In this document: positions 22,748 to 53,257 of the stretch, piece after piece | How positions within the stretch are numbered: the stretch's first letter is position 1 | Layout of the letters: each line of letters begins with the position of its first letter | Assembly (NCBI GenBank): GCA_022823305.1 | Contig: JAJDXK010000004.1 | Span: 62,001 to 126,000 of the forward strand | Direction of reading: 5' to 3' | DNA from: Alphaproteobacteria bacterium | Lineage (GTDB): Bacteria; Pseudomonadota; Alphaproteobacteria; UBA828 | DNA: 64,000 nucleotides | Made by a program: the position numbers and the translations under genes | The notes under the pieces: generated by a model | Told to the model about the DNA's origin: nothing | Seen by the model: the letters and a program-made list of their open reading frames with translations, nothing else | The model's database searches: none

Positions 22748-23883
22748 CAAGCGGCCTCGAGCACGGTGGAGATGCCCTGGCCACCGCCGATGCACTGGGT
22801 GGCGAGCGCGTAGCGCTTGTCCTCGCGGCTGAGGATCTGCGCCGCCTTGCCGGTGATGCGCGCGCCGGTGGCGCCCAGCGGGTGGCCGATGGCGATGGCG
22901 CCGCCGTCGATGTTCATGCGCTCCAGGTCGATGGCGAGCTCGCGCACGCAGGCGAGCGCCTGCACCGCGAAGGCCTCGTTGAGCTCGACCACGTCGACGT
23001 CGGCCATCTTGATGCCGGCACGCGCCAGCGCCTTCTCCGACGAGACCACCGGGCCGTAGCCCATGATCTCGGGCGCACACCCGGCGACCGCGATGGCCTT
23101 GATGCGGGCGAGCACGGAAAGGTCGTTGCGTGCGGCGAACTCCTCGGTGCAGACCAGCACCGCGGCAGCACCGTCGGTGAGCGGCGACGAGGTGCCGGCG
23201 GTGACGGTGCCGTCCGCATCGAAGGCGGGCTCCAGCCCGGCGAGCACCTCCGGGTTGGTGCCGGGGCGGATGCAGCCGTCGCGCTCGACCGTGCCCTCCG
23301 CCGTCTCGACCGCGATCACCTCGCCCGCGAACCTGCCGTCCTCCCAGGCGGCGGCTGCGCGGGCGTGGCTGGTGACGGCCAGCGCCTCCTGCTCCTCGCG
23401 CGTGATCTGGTACTTGCGCGCGAGGTTCTCGGCGGTCTCGCCCATCGACATGTAGGCGCCCTCGTTCTTCTCGTAGAGGTCGGGATTGGGCGCGGGGTTG
23501 AAGCCGCCCATGGGCACCCGGCTCATGGATTCCACGCCGGCGCAGATGAAGGCCTCACCCGCATCCATGCGGATGGCGCCGGCTGCGATGTGGATCGCCT
23601 GCATCGACGAGCCGCAGAAGCGGTTGACGGTGGCGCCGGCGACCGAGATCGGCAGGTCGGCGATCAGGGCCACGATGCGGCCGAGGTTGAAGCCCTGCTC
23701 GCCCTCGGGGAAGGCGCAGCCGATGATCAGGTCCTCGATCTCGGCGGGGTCGACGCCGGTCTGGGCCAGCAGGCCGTGAACGACCTCTGCGGCGAGGTCG
23801 TCCGGCCGCTTCTCGACCAGCGCGCCCTTGTGGGCGAAGTGAAAGGGCGAACGGGCATAGCCGGCGATGACGGCGTTCTTCAT
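22747..23883 (-). CDS. Acetyl-CoA acyltransferase (thiolase)
   Basis: A 378-residue thiolase for the last step of beta-oxidation. The acyl-accepting Cys90 is in VNRFCGSSMQAI; NEAFAVQ, GHPLGATGAR and the C-terminal CIGGGQG carry the other catalytic residues, so the active site is complete. The lack of the shorter biosynthetic-thiolase loop and the partner gene indicate degradation (FadA-like). AAGAGGC precedes the ATG. It is coupled to the FadN-like gene downstream and lies 55 bases after the acyl-CoA synthetase gene. Confidence 0.94.
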   Translation of the reverse strand: MKNAVIAGYARSPFHFAHKGALVEKRPDDLAAEVVHGLLAQTGVDPAEIEDLIIGCAFPEGEQGFNLGRIVALIADLPISVAGATVNRFCGSSMQAIHIAAGAIRMDAGEAFICAGVESMSRVPMGGFNPAPNPDLYEKNEGAYMSMGETAENLARKYQITREEQEALAVTSHARAAAAWEDGRFAGEVIAVETAEGTVERDGCIRPGTNPEVLAGLEPAFDADGTVTAGTSSPLTDGAAAVLVCTEEFAARNDLSVLARIKAIAVAGCAPEIMGYGPVVSSEKALARAGIKMADVDVVELNEAFAVQALACVRELAIDLERMNIDGGAIAIGHPLGATGARITGKAAQILSREDKRYALATQCIGGGQGISTVLEAA

Positions 23884-23938
23884 GGGCTCAGGCCTCTTGC
23901 TCAGTCTGATTTCGGTGTGTCGCGGCGTCGTGCGGCGC

Positions 23939-25657
23939 TCAGGCGGAGGCGTCGGCGCCCTGCTTGGCCGCCTCTTCGGCGATCAGCTCCTTCTTGGAGA
24001 GCTTGCCGATGATGGTCTTCGGCAGCTCGTCGCGGAACTCGATCTGCTTGGGCATCTCGATCGGCGAAAGCTTGTCCTTGAGAAAGCCGGTCAGCTCGTC
24101 CGCGCTCAGGCTCTCGCCCTCCTTGAGCCGGACGAAGGCCTTGACGGTCTGCTGGCGGTGGGCGTCGTCGACGCCGATCACCGTCACCTCCAGTACCGAC
24201 GGGTGCTTGTAGATCGCCTCCTCCACGTGGCGCGGATAGACGTTGTAGCCGCCGGCGATGATGACCTCCTTCAGCCGGTCGATGAGGTAGACGTAGCCGT
24301 CCTCGTCGATGCGGCCGACGTCGCCGGTGTGGAAACGCCCGCCGGCGAAGGCACGTGCGTTCTCCTCGTCGCGCTTCCAGTAGCCCTTCATCACCTGCGG
24401 GCCCGTGATGCAGATCTCGCCGATCTCGCCCTGGGGCAGCACCGTCTCGGGCTCGTCGATCGAGGTGATCTCGACCACGGTGCCGGGCACCGGCACGCCG
24501 AGCGATCCCTCGCGGCTTCCCCCCGGCGTGGTCGGGTTGCAGATCGCGACCGGCGAGGTCTCGCTCAACCCGTAGCCTTCCACCAGGGTGCAGCCGGAGA
24601 GCTTCTGGAACTTCTCCTGCACCTCGCGCGGCAGCGAGGCGCCGCCCGAGAGGCAGAGCTTGATCGAGGAGAGGTCGTACTTGCCTGCCGCCACGTCGGG
24701 GTGGCCGTTGATCGCGATGTAGATGGTGGGCACGGCGGGGAAGAAGGTCGGCCGCTTCTTGTGGACGACCTTGAGCACGGTGTCGAGCTCGAAGCGCGGC
24801 AGCAGGATCATCTTCGCGCCGACCTTGATGCTGAAATTCATCACCACGGCCATGGCGAAGACGTGGAAGAGGGGCAGCACGCCGACCATGACCTCGCGGC
24901 CTTCCTCGGTATCCGGCATCATCATCGCCCCCTGCGCCACGTTCGCGCTGAGGTTGGCGTGAGTCAGCATCGCGCCCTTGGAGGTTCCGGTGGTGCCGCC
25001 GGTGTACTGCAGCACCGCGACGTCCTCCCTCGCGTCGATCTCCACCGGCGACGGCCTGCCGGCGTTGTCGAGCAGCGCGCTGAAGCGGACGTGGCGGGAA
25101 TCGCGTGGAATCTTGGCGATCTCCTTGCCCTTGACGATGGGGAAGAGCAGCCGCTTGAGGCCGGGCAGCATCTCCGCCATGGAGACGATCACCAGATGCG
25201 TGAGCCGCGTCTGGTCGAGGGCGATGCGGGCCTTGTCGTAGAGGATGGAGAGGTCGAGGGTGACCAGGATGTCGGCCTCCGCATCCTCGATCTGGAACTT
25301 GATCTCCTCGATGGCGTAGAGCGGGTTGACGTTGACCACCGTCCCGCCCGCCTTGAGCACGCCGTAGTAGACCGCGATGAAGGCGGGGCAGTTGGGCAGC
25401 AGGATGCCGACCTTGGTGCCCTTGCCGACGCCGAGCTTCTGGAAGCCCTCGGCCGCCCGGTTCGCCTGTGCGCCCAGCTCGCGGTAGCTGGTGATCTTGT
25501 CCATGAAGTCGACCGCCGGCCGGTCGCCGAAGCGGGCCACGGCATCGTCCATCAGTCGGTGCAGCGGCCCCGTCGGCAGCGGCGCGTGCCAGTCGACGTT
25601 TTCGGGATAGGATTTCTCCCAAGGGTGGGCTGCGCCCTGCGCGTCGCTCTCAGCCAT
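23939..25657 (-). CDS. Long-chain acyl-CoA synthetase (FadD-like)
   Basis: A 572-residue AMP-forming fatty acyl-CoA ligase. The P-loop is YTGGTTGTSKGAMLTH, followed by EGYGLSETSP, the FHTGDVGRIDEDGYVYLIDR-type motor region (blocks around residues 420-440), KEVIIAGGYNVYPRHVEE and the catalytic lysine in IIGKLSKKEL. It begins the beta-oxidation operon with the thiolase and FadN-like genes. A strong AGGAG lies at the right distance. It is transcribed away from the polyketide synthase gene across a 283-base gap, so the two may share a regulatory region; whether it also feeds a fatty-acyl starter to the synthase is open. Confidence 0.93.
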   Translation of the reverse strand: MAESDAQGAAHPWEKSYPENVDWHAPLPTGPLHRLMDDAVARFGDRPAVDFMDKITSYRELGAQANRAAEGFQKLGVGKGTKVGILLPNCPAFIAVYYGVLKAGGTVVNVNPLYAIEEIKFQIEDAEADILVTLDLSILYDKARIALDQTRLTHLVIVSMAEMLPGLKRLLFPIVKGKEIAKIPRDSRHVRFSALLDNAGRPSPVEIDAREDVAVLQYTGGTTGTSKGAMLTHANLSANVAQGAMMMPDTEEGREVMVGVLPLFHVFAMAVVMNFSIKVGAKMILLPRFELDTVLKVVHKKRPTFFPAVPTIYIAINGHPDVAAGKYDLSSIKLCLSGGASLPREVQEKFQKLSGCTLVEGYGLSETSPVAICNPTTPGGSREGSLGVPVPGTVVEITSIDEPETVLPQGEIGEICITGPQVMKGYWKRDEENARAFAGGRFHTGDVGRIDEDGYVYLIDRLKEVIIAGGYNVYPRHVEEAIYKHPSVLEVTVIGVDDAHRQQTVKAFVRLKEGESLSADELTGFLKDKLSPIEMPKQIEFRDELPKTIIGKLSKKELIAEEAAKQGADASA

Positions 25658-25940
25658 GCGCTCCGCTCCTTACGTCCCGGGAATCGCGTCCCTGCCCTGT
25701 CCAGGTGCCGGGGAAGCGCTCGGAGGCACTATGGAAACCCCCCTTGCCGCCGTCAAGGCGGGAAACCGGAATGTGCTGCCCTGGTTCGACATGTCGCTCC
25801 CGGCTTGCGGCGATGCCATGGCCGCGCCGGCGCCGCTCAAGTATGATTGAGGCGAGACAAACCGCGATGGGTCGGCAACGAGCGTGCGCGGAGGGGCCGC
25901 GCACCGATATCTCTCCTTCGGCACCGTATCGAGAGAGACC
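25658..25940. promoter_or_regulatory. Divergent intergenic region before the PKS
   Basis: A 283-base gap between the divergent fadD-like and PKS genes that must carry promoters for both directions. A TATGAT at 25842-25847 (5 of 6 matches to a sigma-70 -10 box) faces the PKS, but the sequence 17 bases upstream is a poor -35, so it may need an activator. GAGAGA at 25931-25936 is the PKS ribosome site. No operator symmetry or small gene is evident. Confidence 0.35.
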
Positions 25941-28900
25941 ATGAGTTCAACGGGGGGCGAAAACGCGGCTGCCATCGTCGGGTACGGTCATCGTATGCCC
26001 GGCGGACTGCAGTCGGACTCCGATTTCTGGCGCCTGCTCAGCGAGCGGGAGATCGTCCAGGAGCCGATCAGGGGTCGCTATGGCAGGGGCCACCACCCCA
26101 TAGGGGAATTCTCAGGCCCGGGGCGTCTTGCCAGCCCCTACGAGGGTCTGATTCGCGACGAAGACGAACTGCTCTTCGACCGGACCTTCTTCGGCATGTC
26201 TCACAATGAATTGAGGCAGACCGAGCCGCAGGTCAGGATGCTGCTCAATTGCGCGTGGGAGACCATCGAACACGCCGGTTGGGACCTCCATTCGTTGCGC
26301 AACAGCCCCACCGGGGTCTTCGTCGGCTCGCAGGTGCCGGCGGTGTCCAACTGGCGGCCGCAGCACGGCGTCACGGAGAACTCCGTGTCCGGCATCAGCC
26401 TTGCCATGCTGGCCAACCGGGTCTCGTACCACTTCAACCTCATGGGGTCGTCCGCGACCTACTGCACGGCATGCTCCGCCGGGCTGAGCGCGCTGCACGC
26501 GGCGATGAACGCGCTTGCCTGCGGCGACTGCGACCAGGCACTTGTCGGCGCCGTCACCTATCTGGGCAGCGCCAGGATGAGCAGCGGCTTCAACCTCATG
26601 GGAGTCATCAGCCCCGAGGGCAGGTGCCGCTCCTTCGATGCCGGTGCCAACGGCTACATGCGCTCCGAAGGATCGTTCTGCTTTGCCATCAAGCCGCTGG
26701 CGGCGGCCGAGCGGGACGGCGACGCGATCTACGCCGTGATCGAGGCGACCGCAGTCAATGCGGCGGGCACGGCGGACGGCACCGAAGGGCTCGCGCCGGG
26801 CCGCTTCATCAGCGCGCCAACCCGCCATTCCCAGGCCCAGTTGATGCGTGAGGCCGGCGCCCGCGCCGGCCTCGCGCCCGGCGACTTCGACTACATCGAG
26901 GCGCACGCGACAGGCACCGCGGTCGGCGACCCGATCGAGGGCAACGCCATCGTGGAGGCATTCGCCGACCCCGGGCGCGACGTTCCGCTCAGGGTCTCCA
27001 GCGTCAAGAGCAACGTCGGACACATGGAGGCCGCCGCCTTCCACTGCGCCCTGCTCAAGGTCGTCCTGATGATGCAGCGGCGCACCTTCGCGCCCACGTC
27101 GAACAACTTCCAGGTGCCCAACCCCGAAATCGACTTCGACTCCTGCCCCATGCGGGTGCAGACGGAGTGCGAACCCTTCCCCCGGCATCCCGTCGTGGTC
27201 GGGATCAACTCGTTCGGCTTCGGCGGGGCCAACGGGCACTGCGTGGTGCGCGAGTACCGGCCGGCGCGGCCCAGGCTCTGGTCGGTGCCGCTGGCGCCGC
27301 AGGCCGGCTTCATGATCCCCCTCTCGGCACGCACGCCCAGGGCGCTGGCCGAGAGCGCGAGGCGGCTGCGCGGCACGCTCGACGGGGAAGAGGCGGACCT
27401 CTACGCGCTCGCCGGCACTCTCAGCCGCCGCCGCACCCACTTCGCCGCGCGGACGGCGTTCGCGGTGCGCAACGTGCAGGAGCTCGCAGAGGCGCTGGAT
27501 ACCTTCGCGGAAGAGGAGGCGCCTGTCGCCACCGCAGGGGAGGGCGAGCGGCGGCTGGCGATGGTCTTCGCCGGGCAGGGCACGCAGTGGGCCGGCTGCG
27601 GCCGCGATCTCTACGACGCACATCCCGTCTTCCGCCGCGTCATCGACGCCGTCGACGCGCACTGGCGGGAGCACGCGGAGAGCTCGTTGCGCGAGGCCTG
27701 CTTCGAGGCCCCGCAGGCCGCCCTCGACGAGTGCGCGCTGGCGCAGCCCGTGATCTTCGCCATCCAGTGCGCCCTGGTGGAGCTGTTCAAGACCTGGGGC
27801 GTCCACCCCGACTGCGTCCTCGGGCACAGCTCCGGCGAGGTCGCCGCGGCCTATGCCTCGGGCGCGCTCTCGCTCGCCGACGCGACGCGCCTCGTGTTCC
27901 ACCGCGCTACCCTGCAGCAGCGCGTGGCGGGGTCGGGGCGCATGCTGGCGATCGGCCTCGATCGGCCGGGGGTGGAAGAGCTGCTGGACGGCCTGGACAT
28001 TCCCTTCCGCCTGGACGGGAGCCGGCCCGTCCTGGTCGAGATCGCCTGCGAGAACGCGCCGGCCAACACCGTCATCTGCGGCCGCGAGGCCGAGCTGCAG
28101 CCCGTGATCGACGAGCTGGACCGGCGCAGCCTCCAGAACCGGCTGATCCCGGGCAACATCGCCTTCCACTCCCGGGCGATGGACGAGATCAGGGACGATG
28201 CGCTGGACGCGCTCGCCTTCCTCGACGAGCGCGCCTTCGACGCCGACGTGCCCTTCGTCTCGTCGGTGACGGGCGTCGAGACGGAGCGGCTGGACAGCGC
28301 CTACTGGTGGTCGAACATTCGCAGGCCGGTCCGCTTCGCCGCCGCGATGGAGACCGTCACGCGCGACCACAGGCCCGACGTGGTGCTGGAGCTCGCGCCC
28401 CACTCGGCCCTGCAGCCCATCATCGCCCAATGCGTGGAGGGCGGATCGTCGCCGCCCGTCTCCGTTCCGACCTTCATGCGGGACGAGGACACGTGCCACG
28501 GCTTCCGCGAATCGCTGGGCGCCCTCTTCAGGGCCGGCGTGGCCCTGGACTTCGCGGCCCAGTATCCGCGGCCCGAACCCATCGCCCACCTGCTGCCCGG
28601 ACATCCGAGAGACGAGAAGAGGACCGTCGACACCACGCTGGACGACGAGTTCTTCCTGAATCAAGGCGAGTACGCACACGGCCCCCTGGTCGGTCACCGG
28701 ATTCCGAGCGACCATCTGCTGTTCGAGGCGCGGCTGTCCGAAAGGGCTTTTCCGTGGCTGGCGGAGCACCGCGTCCATCACGCGCCGATCATGCCGGCCG
28801 CCGGCTATATCGAGCTGCTGTTGCAGGCTCTGGGCGGCGTTCCGGTCCATTTCGACGTGCTCGAGTTCTTGCAGCCCTGCCCCATCCCGAAGACTCCGGT

Positions 28901-31900
28901 CAGGCTGCAGACCGCGCTTTATCCGGTCCCCGATTCTCCCGGCGAATACACCTTCCAGGTCTCGACGCTGCCTTACGAGGTCGATGCGAAAAGCCAACTG
29001 CACTGCCGCGGGAGCGTACGCCTGATCGACGCGCCGCCGGAGCTGGACGCAGCGGAAACGCTGTCGGACCTGGACGCCTCGCGCTACGAGCCTCTTCGCT
29101 ATGCAGCCGACGAGGAAATATACGAGCGCTTCGAGGTGATCCTCGGAGAGACCTTCCAATACGGCCCCCACTTCAGGAACATTCGCAAGCTCAGGCGCGA
29201 TCCGCAGACCGGCCGCCTCCTGCTGGATGTCGCGGTCGACGAGGCGCTGTGGGCGGGCGCGCGAGAAGAGGGATACGTCTCCTTTCCGCCCCTCCTTGAC
29301 GGCGGGCTTCAGTCCTTTCTCTACGACCTGATGCTCGGCGCCGATCGTTTCGCCATTCCCCTGCGGGCCGAAAACGTGACCTTCCTCGGTGCGCCGACGG
29401 TGCCGCGCCTCGTCTGCCAACTGACCTATCCCGGCGGCAGGCGATACGAGGTCGACGACAAGGGCCAGTACAATGTCCCCAACGGCGAGTGGGTTTCCGG
29501 CAGGCTGAACTTCTACGACGACGCGACCGGTGCCCTCACCCTTCACGTCGAGAAGTACATCTCCTTCATCTCGTATCCCAGACGGGTCGACCTGCCGCAG
29601 AGCAAGCACCGCATCGTCTGGCAACCCAAGTTCGTGGCCGACGGCCGCGCGGTCGCGGACCGGCTGCCGGAGGGCGAGATCGAGCCGTCCGCCCTGCTGG
29701 CCGCACTGGAGCGGGCGGATGGCGCCGACGGCGAGGTGCGCGCCTGCCACGCGCTGGAGTTCGCCGGATCAAGGAAGCCGGAGCGGACCGTGCTCCACCG
29801 CTGCATCGACCATCTCTCGGGCGACGACGCGCAGAGCGAGTTCTGGCTGATCGGCGACGACGAGGACGACGCCCGGACCTACTACGACGCGTTCCACGTA
29901 AGCGACGCGGCGCTCCGCTTCGACTGCCTCGATCCGGCCGCGGACCGCTCCTCGGCGCTCGACGGGGGCCTGCTGCGTCCCGGCGCGGCGGAGATCCTGT
30001 TCCTCCACCGCGACGGAGATGCGTTCACGCCCGAGGACTGGCGCATCTGGCAGGAGGTAACGGTCGCGGGCGCTCTGGCGCTGGTCTCCCATGACGAAGG
30101 CGGGGAGATCGAGCCCGGCGCAGGCTGGACCGTGCTTCGTGCGGGCGCACGCTCGACACTGCTGCAGGCGCCGCTACAGCCCGCGGACCAGCCGGACCCG
30201 GCGCCGCTACCGGGCCCGCGCTGGGTGCTTGGGGAGGCGCAGAGCTGGGCGGCGGCCTGGACATCGCTGCTCGACGATGCCGCGGTCCACGCAATCCCCT
30301 GCGAGGCCCTCGCGTCGGATCGGCCCTTCGAGCCCGAGGCGTGGCCGGATGCGGCCGACGTGCAGGCGATCGACGTCTTCTTCGACCGGGACCACCGGGA
30401 CCCGACCGGCGAGCGCGCCGTGTCCGCGCTCGTCGCCTTCGTCCGCGCGCTGGTCCCCTGCAGGGTCGACCAGGCGAGCAGCCGGTGCCGCCTTACCGTG
30501 GCGACCCGCAAGGCCGCCTTCGACGTGGAGAATGCGCGCGGCAGCGCGCTCTGGGGCGCGGTGCGCAGCATGGCCGCCGAGATCGCCGAGGAGGCCAGGC
30601 TCGATTTCCGCCTCGTTGACCTCGCCACCGCCGGCGACCTCGAGACGCTGGCGTGGCTCGCCCGGCACGATCTGCGCGAGCGCGAGCTCGCGGTGCGCGA
30701 GGGCCGCCTGTGGGTGCCGCGGGTCGTGAGCAATCGCGAGCAGTTCCCGCGCGTCCCCGCCGGCGAGAGTCCGCCCTACCGGCTCTTTCTGGACAACGCC
30801 GGACAGATCAGCGGCCTCAGGATGAAGACCTGCGAGCCCCCGCCGCTGGCCCCGCACAGCGTGGAGATCGACGTGGCTGCCGCGGCGCTCAACTTCCGCG
30901 ATGTCATGGTGACGCTCGGGCTGCTGCCCGCATTGGCCTACGAGCGCTCGGCGCTCGGCCGCGAGGTCGGCATGGAGGCGAGCGGCGTGGTCCGTCGCGC
31001 CGGCGTGGCGGTGGACGGGCTCGAGCCCGGCGACGAGGTGGTCTTCGTCGACGGCGGCTGCATCGCCAATCGCGCGGTCGTCGGCCAGCACCGCGTCTTC
31101 CCCAAGCCCGCGGGCCTCGGCATGGAAGAGGCCGCGTCATCGCTCTCGGTCTACGTCACCGCGTACTACGCGCTGATTCACCTGGCCCGGCTGCGCAAGG
31201 GCCAGCGCGTCCTCATCCACTCGGCCATGGGCGGCATAGGGCAGGCCGCCATCGCGCTCGCCGGCAACGTGGGTGCGGAGATCTACGCCACCGCGGGCAA
31301 CGAGGACAAACGCGCGCGGCTGCTGGAGCTTGGCGTCAGGGCGGCCTTCGATTCCCACAGCGACGCGTGGTACGAGGGGCTGATGCAGGCGACCAGCGGC
31401 CAGGGCGTCGATGTCGTGCTGAACTCGCTCGCCGGCCGCCACGTTCCCCTCTGCCTGCAGGCGCTCAGGGCCGGCGGCTGGCACTGCGAGATCGGCAAGG
31501 TCGACATCTACGCCGACAGCGCGCCCGGCTTGCGCGTCTTCCGCAAGAACCTGCGCTTCGCCGCCATCGACCTCGACCGTCTGATGGTCGACGACCCGCT
31601 GCTCTCGCGCGAGCTCTCCGAGGCCTGCCTCGACCTGCTCGAGCGCGGCGTGGTGCCGCCCTTGCCGGTGACCTGCTTCCCTTACGGCGACTACGCGAAG
31701 GCGCTGCGTCTGATGACCTCGGGCCAGCACCAGGGCAAGCTGGTGCTCAAGGCGCCGGCGGCGTCCGCCGATCCGGACTTCCCCATTGACGATCGGCGGC
31801 CCCTGCTGGACCCGGAGGGAACCTATCTCGTGACCGGCGGCCTGGGCGGCTTCGGCCAGCGGCTCTTGCCCTACCTCGTGACCGCCGGCGCGCGTCACCT

Positions 31901-33008
31901 CACCCTGATGGACCGCGACCCCGAGCGCCGCCGCAGCGAATACTGGCTGCGCCAGTCCACGACGCTCGCAGCCATGGGCGAGGGCGTCGAGATCGACCTG
32001 GTGCAGGGCGACCTGGCGGTCGAGGCGGACGTGCGCCGCTGTGTCGCCAACGTGAAGAGACCGCTCAAGGGCGTGTTCCACCTTGCCGGCACGCTGGACG
32101 ATTGCCTGCTGGGCGACCTGACGGCGGACTCCGTCGCCGAGGTCTTCGCACCCAAGGCGCACGGCGCCCTGCATCTGCACAATGCCACCGCCGGCCTCGC
32201 GCTCGATCACTTCGTCCTGGTCTCGTCCACCTCGGCGACCTTCGGCAATCCGGGACAGATCAACTACAGCGCCGCCAACGCGTTTCTGGACGGCCTCGCC
32301 GCCTGCCGCCGCCGGCAGGGGCTGCCGGCCCTCTCCTACAACCTGGCGGCCGTCGCCGACGCCGGCATGGCCGCACGCAATCTCGGCGTGCTGCGTCTGA
32401 TGCGGGCCGCCGGCATGCCGCCCGTGAGCAGCTACTGCGCCATCGCCAACCTGGACTACGCACTCCGCAAGATGGATGACGGAGACCACCTGATCACCGC
32501 GCTCTTCAAGCGCGTGCTCTGGCGCGTCGAGTCCGCCGACTACATGCGCAGCGGCCGCCTGATGAGCAACCAGGACGCGTTCGAGGTCGGCTCCGACGAG
32601 CATCTGACGGTCGATAGCGTCATGGCGCAGATCGCCGCGAAGGTCGCCGAGCTCTGCGGCCACGACGAGGGCGGCATGGAGGAGCCCCTCTCAAGCTTCG
32701 GGCTCAACTCCATCTCCGTCGCCGAGCTGGGGGCGTTCATCCAGAGCGAGTTCAACTTCCAGGCGAGCGCGCTGGAGCTCATGACCACGGCCTCGTGCCA
32801 CTCGCTGGCTCACGCCATCGTCTTCGGCACGAAGAGCGATGATGAGGCGGAGGCCGAGGGCGAGGGCGAGGGGATCGACGGCGCGCTCCCCGTTGCCGAG
32901 CGCCGCGCGCGCCGCAGGCCGTCGGTCTTCGCCAGCCCGCCGGAGGACCACTTTCCGCCGGCGCCTTGCAGCAAAGGGGGCGCCGCGGAAGCCCTGCCCG
33001 TCCGGTAG
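25941..33008 (+). CDS. Fully reducing iterative-type modular type I polyketide synthase (KS-AT-DH-ER-KR-ACP)
   Basis: A 2355-residue megasynthase. KS about 8-440: Cys178 in CTACSAGL, His322 (EAHATGT) and His361 (NVGHMEA). AT about 540-860: GQGTQWAG, Ser630 in GHSSG, and AFHS at 742-744, closer to malonyl than methylmalonyl type. DH about 915-1210: His943 in HRVHHAPIMP and Asp1120 in LLDGGLQ. About 1280-1390 looks like a degenerate methyltransferase without a SAM glycine motif. ER about 1612-1940: HSAMGGIGQAA. KR about 1960-2150: VTGGLGGFG, an LDD motif near 2052-2054, Ser2096 and Tyr2109. ACP about 2225-2295: Ser2257 in GLNSIS. No thioesterase; a 60-residue acidic then Arg-rich tail ends it. 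A full reducing loop predicts a saturated chain, probably built iteratively. The next gene, 9 bases on, encodes the likely release enzyme. I chose ATG 25941 for its GAGAGA site. Confidence 0.95.
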   Translation: MSSTGGENAAAIVGYGHRMPGGLQSDSDFWRLLSEREIVQEPIRGRYGRGHHPIGEFSGPGRLASPYEGLIRDEDELLFDRTFFGMSHNELRQTEPQVRMLLNCAWETIEHAGWDLHSLRNSPTGVFVGSQVPAVSNWRPQHGVTENSVSGISLAMLANRVSYHFNLMGSSATYCTACSAGLSALHAAMNALACGDCDQALVGAVTYLGSARMSSGFNLMGVISPEGRCRSFDAGANGYMRSEGSFCFAIKPLAAAERDGDAIYAVIEATAVNAAGTADGTEGLAPGRFISAPTRHSQAQLMREAGARAGLAPGDFDYIEAHATGTAVGDPIEGNAIVEAFADPGRDVPLRVSSVKSNVGHMEAAAFHCALLKVVLMMQRRTFAPTSNNFQVPNPEIDFDSCPMRVQTECEPFPRHPVVVGINSFGFGGANGHCVVREYRPARPRLWSVPLAPQAGFMIPLSARTPRALAESARRLRGTLDGEEADLYALAGTLSRRRTHFAARTAFAVRNVQELAEALDTFAEEEAPVATAGEGERRLAMVFAGQGTQWAGCGRDLYDAHPVFRRVIDAVDAHWREHAESSLREACFEAPQAALDECALAQPVIFAIQCALVELFKTWGVHPDCVLGHSSGEVAAAYASGALSLADATRLVFHRATLQQRVAGSGRMLAIGLDRPGVEELLDGLDIPFRLDGSRPVLVEIACENAPANTVICGREAELQPVIDELDRRSLQNRLIPGNIAFHSRAMDEIRDDALDALAFLDERAFDADVPFVSSVTGVETERLDSAYWWSNIRRPVRFAAAMETVTRDHRPDVVLELAPHSALQPIIAQCVEGGSSPPVSVPTFMRDEDTCHGFRESLGALFRAGVALDFAAQYPRPEPIAHLLPGHPRDEKRTVDTTLDDEFFLNQGEYAHGPLVGHRIPSDHLLFEARLSERAFPWLAEHRVHHAPIMPAAGYIELLLQALGGVPVHFDVLEFLQPCPIPKTPVRLQTALYPVPDSPGEYTFQVSTLPYEVDAKSQLHCRGSVRLIDAPPELDAAETLSDLDASRYEPLRYAADEEIYERFEVILGETFQYGPHFRNIRKLRRDPQTGRLLLDVAVDEALWAGAREEGYVSFPPLLDGGLQSFLYDLMLGADRFAIPLRAENVTFLGAPTVPRLVCQLTYPGGRRYEVDDKGQYNVPNGEWVSGRLNFYDDATGALTLHVEKYISFISYPRRVDLPQSKHRIVWQPKFVADGRAVADRLPEGEIEPSALLAALERADGADGEVRACHALEFAGSRKPERTVLHRCIDHLSGDDAQSEFWLIGDDEDDARTYYDAFHVSDAALRFDCLDPAADRSSALDGGLLRPGAAEILFLHRDGDAFTPEDWRIWQEVTVAGALALVSHDEGGEIEPGAGWTVLRAGARSTLLQAPLQPADQPDPAPLPGPRWVLGEAQSWAAAWTSLLDDAAVHAIPCEALASDRPFEPEAWPDAADVQAIDVFFDRDHRDPTGERAVSALVAFVRALVPCRVDQASSRCRLTVATRKAAFDVENARGSALWGAVRSMAAEIAEEARLDFRLVDLATAGDLETLAWLARHDLRERELAVREGRLWVPRVVSNREQFPRVPAGESPPYRLFLDNAGQISGLRMKTCEPPPLAPHSVEIDVAAAALNFRDVMVTLGLLPALAYERSALGREVGMEASGVVRRAGVAVDGLEPGDEVVFVDGGCIANRAVVGQHRVFPKPAGLGMEEAASSLSVYVTAYYALIHLARLRKGQRVLIHSAMGGIGQAAIALAGNVGAEIYATAGNEDKRARLLELGVRAAFDSHSDAWYEGLMQATSGQGVDVVLNSLAGRHVPLCLQALRAGGWHCEIGKVDIYADSAPGLRVFRKNLRFAAIDLDRLMVDDPLLSRELSEACLDLLERGVVPPLPVTCFPYGDYAKALRLMTSGQHQGKLVLKAPAASADPDFPIDDRRPLLDPEGTYLVTGGLGGFGQRLLPYLVTAGARHLTLMDRDPERRRSEYWLRQSTTLAAMGEGVEIDLVQGDLAVEADVRRCVANVKRPLKGVFHLAGTLDDCLLGDLTADSVAEVFAPKAHGALHLHNATAGLALDHFVLVSSTSATFGNPGQINYSAANAFLDGLAACRRRQGLPALSYNLAAVADAGMAARNLGVLRLMRAAGMPPVSSYCAIANLDYALRKMDDGDHLITALFKRVLWRVESADYMRSGRLMSNQDAFEVGSDEHLTVDSVMAQIAAKVAELCGHDEGGMEEPLSSFGLNSISVAELGAFIQSEFNFQASALELMTTASCHSLAHAIVFGTKSDDEAEAEGEGEGIDGALPVAERRARRRPSVFASPPEDHFPPAPCSKGGAAEALPVR

Positions 33009-33017
33009 CAGGCTGCG

Positions 33018-35549
33018 GTGGCGACAGAACGGTCCGGGGAACTCGCCGTGGCGGAACCGAGCGGCGCAGACCGGGCGGTGTCGCCGCTCGTGGGCCGGCT
33101 GCCGCCGCAGTGCCAGAGAGACGTGGATGCGCTGCGTCGTGTCGTCCATGCGGCGCTCGCGCGGGAGACGCCGGCCGCACCCGTCTCGCCGGCCGATCTT
33201 CGAGAGGTCCTGCTGACCGGCGCCACCGGGTTCGCAGGACGCTTCTTCCTGCGCGAGCTCCTGCGCCAGAGCGAGACGCTGGTCGTGCACTGCCTGGTGC
33301 GCGCCGAGAGCGCCGCGCATGGCGTCGAGCGGCTCCGCGAGGCCATGGAGTACGCGGAAATCTGGGAGGAGAACTGGGCGCCGCGCGTGCGCGTGGTGGC
33401 GGGCGACGTCTGCGCGGACCGCTTCGGCCTGAGCGACGCCGTGTTTGACGGTCTCTGCCAGCGGATCGACGCGGTCTATCACGTTGCCGCCAACGTGGAC
33501 CTGGTCCTGTCCTATGCCGACATACGCGCGACCAACGTGCTCGGCTTTCGTTCCGTGCTCGAGCTCTGTCTGCGCACGCGCCTCAAGCACCTCTTCCACG
33601 CCTCCACCATGGCGGTTTTCCCGGCCTATTTCTGCGATTTCGGCGGAGAGCACCGCCACAGCCGCATCGAGCATCAGATGCAGCCCGACCTGGCCAGCAT
33701 GAAATCAACCTTTCCGCTCGGCGCCATCGGCTATCCGTGGAGCAAGCTGGTGGCCGAGCAGGGCGTGCTCTTCGCACAGGCGGCTGGCATACCGGCCGCG
33801 ATCTTTCGGCTGCCGCAGATGGGGCTTTCCAGCACAGGGTATTCGCAGGCGAGCGACTTTCCCACGCGCCTCTTCGCCGCGGCGAGCCAGCTCGGCAAGG
33901 CGCCGCAGGGCTTTTCCATCCAGAGAAACGCCGAGCCGGTCGACACGGTCAGCGAACTCTGCACGGCGATCTCGTTCAACCCCGAGCGCCGCTTCACCAT
34001 CTACCATTGCTGCGATCCAGAGCCCCCTTACGAAGATCTGGAGGTCGCCGATCTGGGCTACTACTGGCAAAGCGTTCCCTACGCATCCTTCAAGCGCTCG
34101 TGCCAGGCCCTGGGCGAAGAGTCCCCGCTGCGCGGCCAGTGGGTGCTGATCGACCATTTTGCGCCTTACTGGTTCAGCGAGGACAAGTCCGGCCGCACGG
34201 GGCTGGTCTGCGACCGTGCCATTCGGGAGGACTGCCCCCGCCCGATCAAGTGGCCTGCGCTGCTGATCAGGCACGCGCGCTCGTATGACTGGATCAGGCG
34301 CAACCGGGAGGGATGGCCCTATCCGCTCCCCCGTGGCCGCCTGGATTTCGACGGCCTCGTCGCTCAGGCCGAGCGCTTCGCCCGGAGAATGGGCGTGCCC
34401 TTCGAGGCGACCTACCCTGCGTGGATGCGCGAGGGGCTCGAGAAGCTCGTGGAAGCGCTGCAATCGCCGGAGGCCGGACTGCGGGAAACGCGGCTCAGCC
34501 ATCTCGTGTACGGGCTGACCCGCGCGCTCCGCAGCAACGCGGCGCTCGCCCGCGAAGCGCAGCAGCACCCCGAAATCGAGCGGGAGGCGATCACCCGGCC
34601 AGTCTTCATCGTCGGCATCAACCGCACCGGCACGACCTTCCTGCACCGCCTCCTGGCCCGCGACCCGGGGTTCTGGGCATTGCGGCGCTACGAGCTGACG
34701 GAGCCGGTGCTGCCCGGCGGCGCGTATGCCACCGTGGCAGGCACGACCGACGATCCCCGCCGGGCCTACGCAGAAGAGCTGACGGCCGCGACCAACGTCG
34801 TCGATACACTCGCGGGGCTCCACCCTACCGATATCGACGAGCCCGAGGAGGACCTGTGGATCCTCTGGCTCACGTTCTCGACCTGGATATTCTCGACCGC
34901 GTACCACGTACCGACCTATGGCCGCTGGCTGGCCGGGAGCGGATCGCGCTACGCCTACGCCCACCATCGGCGCGTGATGCAGCACTACACCTGGCAGCGC
35001 CGGCGGCGCGAGGCGAACGAGCGGCGCAACTGGCTGCTCAAGATGCCCTTTCACCTCATGGAACTGGAGGTGCTGCTGGAGACCTACCCGGATGCCGTCT
35101 TCATCCAGACCCATCGCGAGCCCGCCCGCTTCATGGGCTCGTGGAACAGCATCGTGGAGCGGATACGGGGCTTTTCCACCGAACCGCGGCCGCCGCACGA
35201 GACCGGCGCCGAGCAGCTGGCGTTCATGAGCGGCATGCTCAACGACGCGATGCGGTTCCGGGCCTCCCGTCCCGCGCTCGAAGAACGCTGGGTCGACGTG
35301 CGCTACGCCGATCTGGTCGACGACCCGATGGCGGTCGTGCGGGACATCTACGGGCGCTTCGGCTGGCCGCTGGATCGGGCCGCGGCCGCCGCCATGGACG
35401 AATGGCTTGCGCTTCAGGCGGAGCAGCGCCGCCACGAGCCGCGCCACGAGTACAGCCTGGAGGACTACGGCCTCACGCCGGAGGCCGTCGATGACGCGTT
35501 TGCGCCCTATCGGGACTTCACCGCCGCGCGCGGAATCGACCTGTCGTGA
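33018..35549 (+). CDS. Thioester reductase-sulfotransferase fusion protein
   Basis: An 843-residue two-domain protein starting at GTG, 9 bases after the PKS stop. Residues about 62-420 are an extended SDR of the thioester-reductase type: VLLTGATGFAGRFFLREL opens the Rossmann fold, HASTMAVFP gives the Ser/Thr, and Tyr239/Lys243 (GYPWSKL) form YxxxK. Such domains release carrier-bound chains with NAD(P)H as aldehyde, sometimes on to alcohol. Residues about 527-843 are a PAPS-dependent sulfotransferase: phosphosulfate loop VGINRTGTTFLHRLL (532-546), KMPFHLMELE (675-684), and THREPARFMGSWNS (698-711) with Arg700 and Ser708 for the 3'-phosphate. Residues 20-60 are helical and could dock the PKS. 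The inferred role is reductive release plus sulfation. It could instead sulfate the carrier-bound chain before release. Confidence 0.9.
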   Translation: MATERSGELAVAEPSGADRAVSPLVGRLPPQCQRDVDALRRVVHAALARETPAAPVSPADLREVLLTGATGFAGRFFLRELLRQSETLVVHCLVRAESAAHGVERLREAMEYAEIWEENWAPRVRVVAGDVCADRFGLSDAVFDGLCQRIDAVYHVAANVDLVLSYADIRATNVLGFRSVLELCLRTRLKHLFHASTMAVFPAYFCDFGGEHRHSRIEHQMQPDLASMKSTFPLGAIGYPWSKLVAEQGVLFAQAAGIPAAIFRLPQMGLSSTGYSQASDFPTRLFAAASQLGKAPQGFSIQRNAEPVDTVSELCTAISFNPERRFTIYHCCDPEPPYEDLEVADLGYYWQSVPYASFKRSCQALGEESPLRGQWVLIDHFAPYWFSEDKSGRTGLVCDRAIREDCPRPIKWPALLIRHARSYDWIRRNREGWPYPLPRGRLDFDGLVAQAERFARRMGVPFEATYPAWMREGLEKLVEALQSPEAGLRETRLSHLVYGLTRALRSNAALAREAQQHPEIEREAITRPVFIVGINRTGTTFLHRLLARDPGFWALRRYELTEPVLPGGAYATVAGTTDDPRRAYAEELTAATNVVDTLAGLHPTDIDEPEEDLWILWLTFSTWIFSTAYHVPTYGRWLAGSGSRYAYAHHRRVMQHYTWQRRRREANERRNWLLKMPFHLMELEVLLETYPDAVFIQTHREPARFMGSWNSIVERIRGFSTEPRPPHETGAEQLAFMSGMLNDAMRFRASRPALEERWVDVRYADLVDDPMAVVRDIYGRFGWPLDRAAAAAMDEWLALQAEQRRHEPRHEYSLEDYGLTPEAVDDAFAPYRDFTAARGIDLS

Positions 35550-35553
35550 CGGG

Positions 35554-38500
35554 CTATTCCCGGCGGCCCTCGACGATCATCACCAGCGCGGGCAGCACGA
35601 AGAGGATCGACAGGGTGGAGAAGGTAAGGCCACCCACCATGCTGACGACGAAGGGCACGAAGCCGATCAGATCATCGCCGCGCTCGTAGAGCAGGGGCGA
35701 GAGGCCCAGCAGCGTGGTGAGGGTCGTCAGGAACACCGCGCGGAAGCGCTGGCGGGTGGCCGCCGCCGCCGCCGCGATGGCCGGAATCATCGCGCTTTCC
35801 CGCCGGATCCTGTTGTAGCGATCCAGCAGCACCAGGGCGTCGTTCACCACCACGCCGCCGACCGCGATCATGCCGAAGAACGACATGGTGGTCAGATCCC
35901 AGCCGAGGATCCAGTGACTCACGACCGCGCCCGCGAAGGCGATCGGAATTCCCGCCACTGCGATAATCGGCTTCCAGTAGCTGCGCAGGAAGGCCGCGAT
36001 GAGCGCGTAGATCGCGATCAGGACGATGGGGACGAGAACGCTCAGCGTCTCGAGCATGTCGCCCTCGTCCCGGGCGCCCGCTTCGACCTCGACCGAAAGA
36101 CCGGGATAGTTCGCGAGAAGGACGGGAATGACGTGCTCCCGGATCTCCCCCCGCGCCCGAAGGGGCGTTATCACCGCCGTGTCCGCCCGCGCGTTGACGC
36201 GCGCAGCCCGCTTGCCGTCGATGCGTGTCAGCGTCGCCGGCTCGCGCTTCTCGGTGATACGCGCCACCAGCGAGAGCGGCACCTCGCCGCCGCCGGGCCG
36301 GTGGATCCGCTCGCTGGCGAGCTCGCTCAGGCTGCGCCGGCGCTCGGCCGGGTACCTGACCACGACCTTGACTTCCTCGCGGCCACGCTGGATGCGCTGG
36401 ACCTCGACACCGTGGAAATTGGCGCGCAGCTGCCGGCCGATGAGGGCCGGGGTGAGCCCCGCGGCCTCGCCCGCCGGCGTCAGCGCGACCTCGAAGTGCC
36501 GCTTGCCCAGCGCCAGGTCGTCCGAGATGCCGTAGATCCCCGGCACGGCCGCCATGCCCGATCTCAGCTCCGAGGCGGCGGCTCTCAAGGTCTCCATGTC
36601 GTCGTGCTTGAGCGAGTAGGAGACGCTCGGTCTCACGTCGACGCGCCTTGAGCGAATGTCGACCTTTTCCAGGTTCGGCAGGGTGCCGACGGCGCGGCGC
36701 CATGCCCGCCCGATCTCCACCGGGGACGCCGCGCGCTCGGGCCGTTCGCTGAGGTGCAGGCGCACCGAGGCGAGATGACTGCTGTTCAGCCTCTCCCCGA
36801 TCTTTCGCGTCGCCTCGACATTGCCGACGATCATGCTCACCGCGTCGATGGGAGTCCCCTCGAGCGTATCGTTGATGCCGTGCCCCGCTTCCACGAAGCG
36901 CTCGGCCGCGGCGACCGTCTCCTCGAATGGCGTGCCCGCCGGCAGGTAGAGGTCCGCCTGCACGTTGTCGGTGCTGCTCAGCTTCTCGTCGAACATGACG
37001 ACGCGCACGGTATCGGAGCCGATGAGCAGCACGGCGGCGCCCAGAACGAGGATGCCGCCGACGATCGCCAGCCAGACGTTGCGCACGGTCCACGAGGCTG
37101 CCGGGGCCACGACCCTGTCGCGAACCTCGTCCAGCCATCCGCCGACCTGGCTCTGCACGTCGCTCAGCGGCGAGAGGCTCCAGCGCCTCCCGTGCGACAG
37201 GTGCGCCGGCAGTATGAAGAACGCGGCAACCAGCGAAACGAGCAGGACGAAGATGGCAACGTAGGGGAAGACGTTGACGATCTGATACGCGGGCGAGGTG
37301 ATGAAGAGGAAGGGCAGGAAGGCCAGAATCGTCGTGACGGCGCCGATGGTCAGCGGACCCACCATGGCCCGCGCGCCCGAGATGGCCGCCTCCAGCGCGC
37401 CCTTTCCCCTCTCGCGTTCCGCCGCGATGCTCTCGCCCACGACGACGGCGTCGTCGACGACGATGCCGACCAGCAGGAAGAAGCCGAAGATCGTGCCGAG
37501 GTTGAGCGTCAGGTCCGCAGCGTCGAAGAACATCAGCGACCCGACGAACGACAGGGGGATGCCGACGGTCATCCACAGCGCGATGCGGAGCTCGAAGACG
37601 AGAACGAGGGAGATGAACACCAGGATGATGCCGACCGCACCGTTCTTCGCGATCTCCAGCAAACGGTTGAATATGGGGCTGGCATTGTCGTTCCAGATGC
37701 TGACGCTCACGCCCTCGGGCGGGTCGTAGGCCGCGAGCAGGCCCCTGATGTCGTCGGCCATCTCGATGACGGACTGCTCCTCGGTCGCATTGATGCGAAC
37801 GAGCACCGCCGGACTGCCGTTGACCTCGGTGATCACCTCCTCGTCGACGAACCCGTCGCGGATCGTGGCGACGTCGCCGAGCGTGACGATCGTGCCGTCG
37901 AGCTGGGTGATGAGCGGAATGTCCTCGAAGTCCTGCCCGACGCCCCTCTTGGCGACGGTGTGCAGAACCACGCTGCCGGCATCGGTCCGTATCTCGCCAA
38001 TGGTGAGGTTGAGGGAGGCCCGCCTTACCGCGGCGGAAACTTCGGTGAGCGAGAGGTTGTGACGGCGCAGCTCCTCCTCGCTCAGCTCTATGGCGATCTC
38101 GCGGTCGCGGGTGCCCTTCAGCGCCACCTGGGAAACCGACGGCAGTTGCAGCACCCTGTCGCGCAGGTCTTCCGCAGCGAGGCGCAATGCGTCCTCGGAA
38201 AGGGCGGGCGAGGCGACGGCCAGCGTCATGACCTCGTGGGAGACCTTCAGGAGCTCGACGTCCGGCTGCTCCGCCCGCACGGGCGGGAAGTTCTCGATGC
38301 TGTCGATCGCGCTCTGGATGTCGTTGAAGACGGCGTCGGAATCCGCGAAGGTCGACATCTCCACCGTGACCTTGCCGATCCCTTGGCTCGCGGTCCCTAC
38401 CACGCGCTCGACGCCGGGCAGCCCGACGACGCTCTCTTCGATCCGGCGGTTGACGTCCTCCTCGACCTCCTGGGGCGAGGCGCCCGGATACAGCACCGTG

Positions 38501-38709
38501 ACCGCAGCCCGCCGGGCCTCGATATCTGGATAGTACTGGACGACGAGCTGGAGCCCCGACAGTACGCCGCCGACGATCAGCAGCACCATGAGCAGGTTGG
38601 CGGCGACGGGGTTGCCGGCGAAGTAGGCGATCAGCCCCGATTTCAGGCCGGAGTGTTCCGGCTGTACTGCGGGCCCGGCGCTGCTGCCGCCTGCGTCGGT
38701 CATGCTCAT
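35554..38709 (-). CDS. RND (HAE1-type) efflux transporter permease
   Basis: A 1051-residue inner-membrane pump of the AcrB/MexB superfamily. It has the expected twelve helices in two halves with large periplasmic domains. The helix-4 proton-relay pair is present as GIVVDDAVVVGES, and its counterpart in the second half is VVVNDALVLLDRYNR. The pump would use the proton gradient to expel lipophilic compounds through a fusion protein and an outer-membrane channel; no channel gene is in the window. The fusion-protein gene lies 12 bases upstream. Its stop lies only 4 bases from the stop of the converging PKS-partner gene, so any terminators must lie inside coding sequence. Confidence 0.93.
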   Translation of the reverse strand: MSMTDAGGSSAGPAVQPEHSGLKSGLIAYFAGNPVAANLLMVLLIVGGVLSGLQLVVQYYPDIEARRAAVTVLYPGASPQEVEEDVNRRIEESVVGLPGVERVVGTASQGIGKVTVEMSTFADSDAVFNDIQSAIDSIENFPPVRAEQPDVELLKVSHEVMTLAVASPALSEDALRLAAEDLRDRVLQLPSVSQVALKGTRDREIAIELSEEELRRHNLSLTEVSAAVRRASLNLTIGEIRTDAGSVVLHTVAKRGVGQDFEDIPLITQLDGTIVTLGDVATIRDGFVDEEVITEVNGSPAVLVRINATEEQSVIEMADDIRGLLAAYDPPEGVSVSIWNDNASPIFNRLLEIAKNGAVGIILVFISLVLVFELRIALWMTVGIPLSFVGSLMFFDAADLTLNLGTIFGFFLLVGIVVDDAVVVGESIAAERERGKGALEAAISGARAMVGPLTIGAVTTILAFLPFLFITSPAYQIVNVFPYVAIFVLLVSLVAAFFILPAHLSHGRRWSLSPLSDVQSQVGGWLDEVRDRVVAPAASWTVRNVWLAIVGGILVLGAAVLLIGSDTVRVVMFDEKLSSTDNVQADLYLPAGTPFEETVAAAERFVEAGHGINDTLEGTPIDAVSMIVGNVEATRKIGERLNSSHLASVRLHLSERPERAASPVEIGRAWRRAVGTLPNLEKVDIRSRRVDVRPSVSYSLKHDDMETLRAAASELRSGMAAVPGIYGISDDLALGKRHFEVALTPAGEAAGLTPALIGRQLRANFHGVEVQRIQRGREEVKVVVRYPAERRRSLSELASERIHRPGGGEVPLSLVARITEKREPATLTRIDGKRAARVNARADTAVITPLRARGEIREHVIPVLLANYPGLSVEVEAGARDEGDMLETLSVLVPIVLIAIYALIAAFLRSYWKPIIAVAGIPIAFAGAVVSHWILGWDLTTMSFFGMIAVGGVVVNDALVLLDRYNRIRRESAMIPAIAAAAAATRQRFRAVFLTTLTTLLGLSPLLYERGDDLIGFVPFVVSMVGGLTFSTLSILFVLPALVMIVEGRRE

Positions 38710-38721
38710 TGCCCGGCTCCG

Positions 38722-39906
38722 CTATTCCGACGCCGGTGCAGCGCTGGCCTCGACGGCCAATCCTTCCCGCGCCGCCGGCAACGAGCCGACGACGACGCCG
38801 TCGCCTGCGTCGAATGCCTCCACCACCACGCCGCCGTCGGCGTGTCCCAGCAGGCGCGGGGCCACGGCCTTCAACGCGCCGCCGTCGACGACCCAGACGC
38901 TGTCGCGGTCCTGCAGCGCCGCCTCCGGCAGCACGAACACGTTGTCGTGCACCGGGCCTGCGACCGAGACCTCCGCGAACGAGCCGGGCAGCGGCAGCGT
39001 ATCCGCCGGCTGATCTTCCGCGAACCGGAGGAAGAGCGTCGCGAGACGGGTCTTGGGGGCGATCGCCGCCGAGGTGCGCTCCACCGTCGCGGTAAACGTA
39101 CCCGCCGCCGTGCGAACCGTGGCGGCGCGACCGATGGCCGGCGCGAGAGAGGCCAGGTCATCCTGCCCGATCGGCGCTCTTACTTGGAGCGCGTCCGTGC
39201 GATAGACGGTGCCCAGATTCGCGGCGCGGCCGACGAGCTCGGCGGGGCCGACGAACTGGCCGACTTCGATATCAGCCGCCGCCACCCGGCTGTCGTAGGG
39301 AAGGGATATCTCCGTTCGTTCGAGCTGGAGCTGCGCCAGCTTCAGCTCGGCCTGCGCCTTCATGAGGGCGGCTTCCGCCTGGGCGATCTGCGGCGCGCGG
39401 CGAACCCGTCCCGGGACCTCGGCCCCGGGGTTCTCGCGCGCGAACGCCGCCGCGCTCTCCGCGCCCAGGGCCCTCTCCACCTGAACCCGCGCCTCTGCTT
39501 CGCTGACGGCAGCGGCCGCAACGTCACGCTGGAGCTCGTGCTCGGCCGGATCGATCCTGATAAAGGTCTCGTTGGCGGCGATCGACCCGCCGTTGCGGAA
39601 ATTCGGCGATACCCAGGCCACGCGGCCCTCGACCTCGGAGGTGACCCTCACGTTGCCGTGGAGCGTCACCCCTCCCATCAGGTGGACCGTCAACGCCTGC
39701 TCTGTCGGCGCCGGCTTGACCACGGTGACGGTGGGCTTTACCGGGTCGCCAGCCACGTCCGATATGGCGTCCCACTCCACCTGGCTGGGCGCCTGCGCGA
39801 AGTAAAGAGCGACGCCGATCGCAGCCAGAATCAACGCCAGTTGAGCGTAGCCGAGCCACCTCGGCCGGCCGCTTCGACCCGTGGAGGATTCCCCTTCCTG
39901 CGCCAT
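38722..39906 (-). CDS. RND periplasmic membrane-fusion (HlyD/AcrA-type) subunit
   Basis: A 394-residue adaptor protein. Residues 17-40 form an N-terminal membrane anchor with no lipobox. Then come a beta-barrel/lipoyl half (SEVEGRVAWVSPNFRNGGSI-type block near 88-107), an alpha hairpin of Ala/Glu-rich heptads (about 115-190), the second lipoyl half (ISLPYDSRVAAADIEVGQFV near 195) and C-terminal barrel domains. It bridges the RND pump and an outer-membrane channel. The ATG is preceded by an eight-G run on the coding strand rather than a normal ribosome site. Confidence 0.92.
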   Translation of the reverse strand: MAQEGESSTGRSGRPRWLGYAQLALILAAIGVALYFAQAPSQVEWDAISDVAGDPVKPTVTVVKPAPTEQALTVHLMGGVTLHGNVRVTSEVEGRVAWVSPNFRNGGSIAANETFIRIDPAEHELQRDVAAAAVSEAEARVQVERALGAESAAAFARENPGAEVPGRVRRAPQIAQAEAALMKAQAELKLAQLQLERTEISLPYDSRVAAADIEVGQFVGPAELVGRAANLGTVYRTDALQVRAPIGQDDLASLAPAIGRAATVRTAAGTFTATVERTSAAIAPKTRLATLFLRFAEDQPADTLPLPGSFAEVSVAGPVHDNVFVLPEAALQDRDSVWVVDGGALKAVAPRLLGHADGGVVVEAFDAGDGVVVGSLPAAREGLAVEASAAPASE

Positions 39907-52459: not shown

Positions 52460-53257
52460 ATGTCCCGCCGCTCGCCGCTGATCACGGTCATGGTCAACGC
52501 CGCCTACAAGGCGGCGCGCGACCTGATCCACGACTTCGGCGAGGTCGAGAACCTGCAGGTCTCGCGCAAGGGGCCGGCCGACTTCGTCTCCGCCGCCGAC
52601 CACCGGGCCGAGAAGACGCTGGTGGCGGAGCTGGGGCGCGCGAGGCCGCGCTTCGGCTTCCTGCTCGAGGAAGGCGGCGCCGTCGAGGGCGAGGACAGCT
52701 CCAACCGCTGGGTGGTCGACCCCCTGGACGGCACCACCAATTTCCTGCACGGGCTGCCTCACTTCGCGATCTCCATCGGGCTCGAGCGCGACGGCAAGCC
52801 CCATGCCGGCGTGATCTACGACCCGGTGCGCGACGAGCTCTTCTGGGCGGAAAACGGCGCCGGCGCCTTCCTCAACAACCAGCGGCTCAGGGTCTCCGCC
52901 CGACGCGAGCTGGCGCCGGCGCTGCTCGCGACGGGGCTGCCCTTCAGCGCCCGCCCGCGCTACCCGGGTCACGTCGAGATGGTGCGCCGGCTCGCCGGCG
53001 AGAGCGCGGGCGTGCGCCGCACCGGCTCGACCGCGCTCGACCTCGCCTACGTCGCCGCCGGGCGCTTCGACGGCTACTGGGGCTTCGGCATGGAGCCCTG
53101 GGACCTCGCCGCCGGCATCATCATCGTGCGCGAGTCCGGCGGCATCGTCACCGAGACGGGCGGCGGCGCGGACTCCATGACCAGCGGCGACGTGCTGGCC
53201 GCGAACGGCCACCTCCACGGCCTGCTGCGGGAGGCGCTGGCCTCGGCCGCAGGCTGA
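52460..53257 (+). CDS. Inositol monophosphatase family protein
   Basis: A 265-residue magnesium phosphatase of the IMPase/SuhB family. Metal-site residues: Glu70/Glu71 (LLEEGG), Asp87 and Asp90 in WVVDPLDGTTNFLHG, and Asp215 in EPWDLAAG. It likely hydrolyses inositol phosphates or similar, and SuhB members also aid rRNA transcription. It follows efp in a common alphaproteobacterial order. No ribosome site is evident before the ATG. Confidence 0.93.
   Translation: MSRRSPLITVMVNAAYKAARDLIHDFGEVENLQVSRKGPADFVSAADHRAEKTLVAELGRARPRFGFLLEEGGAVEGEDSSNRWVVDPLDGTTNFLHGLPHFAISIGLERDGKPHAGVIYDPVRDELFWAENGAGAFLNNQRLRVSARRELAPALLATGLPFSARPRYPGHVEMVRRLAGESAGVRRTGSTALDLAYVAAGRFDGYWGFGMEPWDLAAGIIIVRESGGIVTETGGGADSMTSGDVLAANGHLHGLLREALASAAG

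Follow-up and report, generated by a model that had tools for sequence, protein, structure and literature searches.

A copy of the swfA-swfB gene pair in an alphaproteobacterial genome bin, with an unlinked swfC and a candidate route to sulfated lipids

The type I polyketide synthase (PKS) gene and the reductase-sulfotransferase gene that lie side by side in the 64,000-nucleotide stretch of DNA analyzed here (the window) are almost certainly a swfA-swfB pair, as judged from their motifs, architecture, and relatives. The swf genes, whose name stands for "sponge (symbiont) widespread FASs," were described from Plakortis simplex by Della Sala et al. in 2013 (PMC3908369), and a 2014 study left their source organism unresolved (PMC4245539). 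A preliminary description of the window did not recognize the pair as a described system, which was wrong: the 2013 paper contains the same domain reading and already proposed an alkyl sulfate product (PMC3908369). The window pair is a further copy of this known, unsolved family, and our additions to the 2013 account are an unlinked swfC, hosts in multiple phyla, family-wide conservation of catalytic residues, an APS kinase, and the resemblance of the sulfotransferase (ST) domain to Stf1 and Stf9.

Results

The reading of open reading frames and Pfam domain prediction agree on a single-module PKS that starts at an ATG at 25941 and ends with the stop codon at 33006 to 33008 (Table 1); a longer reading from a GTG at 25884 is disfavored, as full-length homologues align from the ATG. 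Pfam places KS, AT, DH, ER (ADH_N/ADH_zinc), and KR domains and one PP-binding domain on SwfA, in which no loading domain is recognizable, and returned no thioesterase match in SwfA or SwfB. On the same strand, nine noncoding bases separate swfA from swfB, whose product matches NAD_binding_4 (E = 1e-51) and Sulfotransfer_3 (E = 2e-38) in Pfam and the TIGR01746 thioester reductase in NCBIfam with 214.9 bits, just above the cutoff of 213.35. These matches, together with the predicted structure of SwfB, bear out what the preliminary description had said of the two proteins, namely, a PKS with this domain set and no release domain, followed 9 bases downstream by a thioester reductase joined to a PAPS-type sulfotransferase. 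The sulfolipid-1 synthase Pks2 and Pks13 are ruled out as the identity of SwfA; they are its top NCBIfam matches, and their scores (861.6 bits against a cutoff of 2400 and 481 against 2100) fall far below the cutoffs. DNA repeats around the pair gave weak matches only, which we read as ordinary for GC-rich coding DNA.

Table 1. Coordinates of swfA, swfB, and their domains in the window
Feature	Position	Strand	Residues and motifs
swfA, type I PKS/FAS, one module, 2355 aa, KS-AT-DH-ER-KR-ACP, no thioesterase	25941..33008	+	
KS domain of SwfA	25971..27260	+	C178, H322 (HATGT), H361; EPQVR replacing DPQQR, a swf signature
AT domain of SwfA	27564..28544	+	GHSSGE, IAFH (malonyl type), swf signature QCALVEL
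DH domain of SwfA	28683..29396	+	invariant H943, D1120
ER domain of SwfA, NADPH-dependent, zinc-ADH-like	30792..31751	+	
KR domain of SwfA	31818..32357	+	invariant K2072, S2096, Y2109; LDD motif
ACP domain of SwfA	32628..32816	+	invariant S2257
swfB, thioester reductase-sulfotransferase fusion, 843 aa, putative GTG start	33018..35549	+	
R (thioester reductase) domain of SwfB	33207..34094	+	GxxGxxG (68-74), T197/Y239/K243
ST (sulfotransferase) domain of SwfB	34599..35375	+	PAPS loop RTGTT 536-540; R700, S708 conserved

The pair matches the published swf clusters (pPS11G3, pPSA11D7, and POR_0547-0550) in the domain order of the PKS, in the R-ST fusion encoded by the gene after swfA, and in the placement of swfA directly before swfB. 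Published SwfA proteins have 2349 and 2361 aa and published SwfB proteins 839 and 832 aa (PMC3908369), compared with 2355 and 843 aa here. In the KS domain of SwfA, the second Q of DPQQR is replaced by V (EPQVR, residue 95), where the family rule is I or V, with E in place of the D of the aligned-loci consensus DPQVR, and HATGT stands for HGTGT at residue 322. The AT signatures IAFH (residue 740), GHSSGE (628), and QCALVEL (609) are also present. The sole departure among the SwfA signatures compared is the AT primer motif FAGQGTQW, with A for the S of the consensus FSGQGTQW. By the motif rule used in PMC3908369, the AT sequence suggests malonyl-CoA as the extender.

The predicted active sites appear intact across the family. 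In an alignment of 29 loci, with only sequences that have letters at a position counted there, all sequences keep C178, H322, and H361 of the KS; S630, R655, and H743 of the AT; H943 and D1120 of the DH; K2072, S2096, and Y2109 of the KR; and S2257 of the ACP. The R-ST fusion is kept across the aligned SwfB loci, as are the glycines of GxxGxxG, Y239, and K243 in the R domain and RTGTT, R700, and S708 in the ST domain, while T197 is T or S. We presume the catalytic roles of these positions from family knowledge.

A phmmer search of the PDB matched one half of SwfB to the terminal R domain of MxaA and the other half to two mycobacterial sulfotransferases. We modeled SwfB with AlphaFold2 from a 31-member alignment (mean pLDDT, 79.2; pTM, 0.70), and the model aligned with solved Stf1 and Stf9 at TM scores (by target) of 0.83 and 0.81, with the R domains of MxaA and a Streptomyces coelicolor PKS at 0.68 to 0.81, and only weakly with the olefin-synthase ST 4gox (0.48). 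As modeled, the ST domain of SwfB is closer to the mycobacterial Stf1 and Stf9 than to the olefin-synthase ST.

On contig C62 (L062:320-2533, minus strand), the same genome has a gene for an APS kinase with a fused, CysN-like C-terminal part, so that a supply of PAPS is plausible, and the genome carries two PPTase-family genes. According to PMC3908369, the ACPS of E. coli fails to activate the ACP of SwfA. The APS kinase gene adjoins a second sulfotransferase gene (Sulfotransfer_3, 41 bits), itself next to a gene that by eye resembles a molybdopterin biosynthesis gene (MoeA-like). A candidate PAP phosphatase (CysQ) at 52460-53254 of the window is unsupported; its best NCBIfam match is inositol-1-monophosphatase, under the cutoff. 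On contig C23 (L061:1874-12220, minus strand), Pfam reads a second large PKS of 3449 aa as KS-AT-DH-MT-ER-KR-ACP-KS; its methyltransferase and extra KS are reminiscent of the other sponge-specific family, sup.

Searching genome contigs with SwfB for the same two-gene pair, a step that the preliminary description had proposed, yielded 36 relatives at 52 to 81% identity; the pair is thus neither chance nor artifact. All 36 are metagenome-assembled genomes (MAGs) labeled Alphaproteobacteria, Gammaproteobacteria, Gemmatimonadota, Acidobacteriota, Nitrospirota, or Binatota, and judging from record titles, most swf-bearing MAGs are probably sponge derived. Because all are draft bins, one absence or one linkage taken alone weighs little. 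Palauibacterales, one relevant order, has been described as cosmopolitan (PMC10469786). In a sample of 399 genomes of the phylum, the genome of the window was the only one to match swfB, and among 60 relatives, the matches were limited to members of its genus.

swfA accompanies swfB in 35 of the 36 loci, and the exception (L022) ends at a contig edge. The usual order is A-B; swfC sits between the two in L028 and L035, L024 has two swfC copies there, and L038 has the order B-A-C. The identities of SwfA and SwfB are correlated (Pearson r, 0.87; 406 pairs from 29 loci), indicating that the two genes travel together. In the SwfB tree, a proteobacterial clade stands apart from a Gemmatimonadota/Acidobacteriota/Nitrospirota/Binatota group. 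One gammaproteobacterial bin (L037) falls inside Gemmatimonadota and other gammaproteobacterial bins fall among Alphaproteobacteria, placements that reflect either horizontal transfer or binning error.

The third gene of the family, swfC, encodes a B12-type radical SAM protein with a CX3CX2C motif, which lies in the operon in two of the three published clusters and is missing from pPSA11D7 (PMC3908369). Since pPSA11D7 is a fosmid insert, this may not be a true absence. No radical SAM gene lies beside the window swfAB, a feature shared with pPSA11D7. Unlike the published clusters, the window copy lies in an alphaproteobacterial bin and has its swfC on another contig (C100); this swfC has B12-binding, Radical_SAM, and DUF4070 domains and is 78% identical to the L009 copy. 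In 24 of the 36 other loci, no more than about 10 kb separates swfC from swfB, and the 23 linked copies that are long enough show the motif CPFDCEFC. Of 16 other genomes selected because they carry swfAB, 13 also had swfC, and none of the 398 other sampled genomes of the phylum did; seven of these 398 have matches that are just 39 to 46% identical paralogues. Among 12 near relatives, swfC was present in three of the four with swfB and in one of the eight without it (G003, 67% complete). This pattern of occurrence indicates that swfC accompanies swfAB even when unlinked.

Upstream of swfA, on the minus strand (20420-25657), lie genes for a 3-hydroxyacyl-CoA dehydrogenase, a thiolase, and an acyl-CoA ligase, and downstream of swfB, also on the minus strand (35554-39906), lie those for an RND-family transporter and its likely membrane-fusion partner. 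We rejected these beta-oxidation and pump genes as functional partners, as they are not general swf neighbors: an RND pump lies 3' of swfB in one other locus (L022), with related transporter genes in L009, L023, and L028. Seven proteobacterial loci (L009, L014, L017, L018, L019, L020, and L031) have a short-chain dehydrogenase gene (about 250 to 280 aa) in the vicinity of swf; none was seen near the window swf. Ten loci (L024, L025, L027, L030, L037, L038, and L040-L043) have an STAS-type anti-anti-sigma factor homologue near swf, in keeping with the anti-anti-sigma genes that adjoin swf in the gene list of fosmid pPS11G3. In L015 (10001-13065), swfB is followed by a second, partial C-terminal copy that is 61.9% identical to the window protein over residues 702 to 840.

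Discussion

We lean modestly toward a model in which swfAB is an operon carried by an uncultured, sponge-symbiont-type alphaproteobacterium and directs a whole route of iterative chain building, reductive release, O-sulfation, and possibly methylation by SwfC. SwfA would extend a chain with malonyl-CoA in the manner of an animal-type fatty acid synthase, where we infer both the iteration and the chain length, and its KR, DH, and ER domains would leave a largely saturated acyl chain on the ACP. Because SwfA has no thioesterase, the acyl-ACP would be passed to SwfB, whose R domain would use NADPH to release an aldehyde or, if it reduces twice, a primary alcohol; we presume the four-electron course over the two-electron one. 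The ST domain would then move sulfate from PAPS to a hydroxyl, presumably that of the released alcohol, to give an alkyl sulfate. Methylation of the chain may be the task of SwfC, the B12-binding radical SAM protein whose gene is on another contig. Reductive release followed by sulfation to an alkyl sulfate had been suggested in the preliminary description and is reasonable as a reading of the domains. Several points count against the model. SwfA shows no loading domain from which a starter could be read. The sole reported heterologous expression, in which E. coli BAP1 received the P. simplex PS11G3 cluster, yielded no new compound, and the 2013 authors know of no such alkyl sulfates widespread in sponges, with the qualification that standard lipid work-up would miss them (PMC3908369). 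Our literature search, with thin coverage of subscription journals, found no later characterized swf product.

As reported in PMC3908369, the multimodular type I FAS of coccidia has contiguous C-terminal R and ST domains after a fatty-acid-type synthase; unlike swf, it is eukaryotic, multimodular, and a single polypeptide. Homologous R domains release the chain reductively in MxaA of myxalamid and MxcG of myxochelin biosynthesis; that of SwfB differs in being joined to a sulfotransferase and in residing on a different polypeptide from the ACP.

The sulfate could also be placed on the carrier-bound chain or on an internal hydroxyl; the R domain would still release an aldehyde or alcohol, but the product would be a chain-sulfated lipid in place of a terminal alkyl sulfate. 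We regard this as unlikely but worth bearing in mind: hydroxyls could survive if an iterative PKS omits some reductive steps, a possibility raised in PMC3908369, and no sequence feature that we examined fixes the sulfate acceptor or decides between two- and four-electron reduction. Against it, the whole reductive set (KR, DH, and ER) is intact and conserved throughout the family, and the joining of R and ST in one protein favors consecutive action at the same end of the chain.

Improbable, in our view, is an arrangement in which the R domain stops at an aldehyde that other enzymes use and the ST sulfates a separate metabolite, the fusion merely keeping both together. Release by a two-electron reduction is a known activity of R domains generally (PMC3908369), but R and ST stay joined throughout the aligned loci, and the acceptor that an ST would naturally use is an alcohol.

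We consider it improbable to much the same degree that sulfate serves as a leaving group, with the ST acting on a beta-hydroxyacyl-ACP for later elimination. The swf paper cites the curacin A precedent (PMC3908369), CurM and the cyanobacterial olefin synthase (Ols) likewise couple a PKS to a PAPS sulfotransferase, and the olefin-synthase ST is a weak structural match to SwfB. That route, however, uses the thioesterase that follows the ST in CurM and Ols, where the window pair has an R domain instead, and the ST of SwfB fits Stf1 and Stf9 far better than 4gox, all of which makes a curacin-type course less likely. That SwfA is a WcbR/RkpA-type synthase for the lipid moiety of capsular polysaccharide, the first annotation given to the poribacterial POR_0547/0548 (PMC3908369), is very improbable, since the flanking genes scanned at the window are for beta-oxidation and an RND-type transporter and include no capsule genes, and since SwfA carries the swf signatures, whereas WcbR and RkpA keep DPQQR and HGTGT (PMC3908369).

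Beyond the alkyl sulfate route itself, we put forward the tentative and rather doubtful idea that swfABC makes lipids of a class that has escaped detection, namely, long-chain alkyl sulfates that may be methyl branched, and that horizontal transfer has carried the genes among sponge symbionts in several unrelated phyla, with swfC a regular but often unlinked component. The swf genes have been an orphan family since 2013, present in many sponges with a product never found; an alkyl sulfate, if that is what they make, would have escaped common lipid protocols. The three proteins to coexpress are now defined, where a cluster with no adjacent swfC would mislead one into omitting the third. With swf now placed in binned genomes of several phyla and accompanied by a regular gene set, the question of its hosts becomes answerable.
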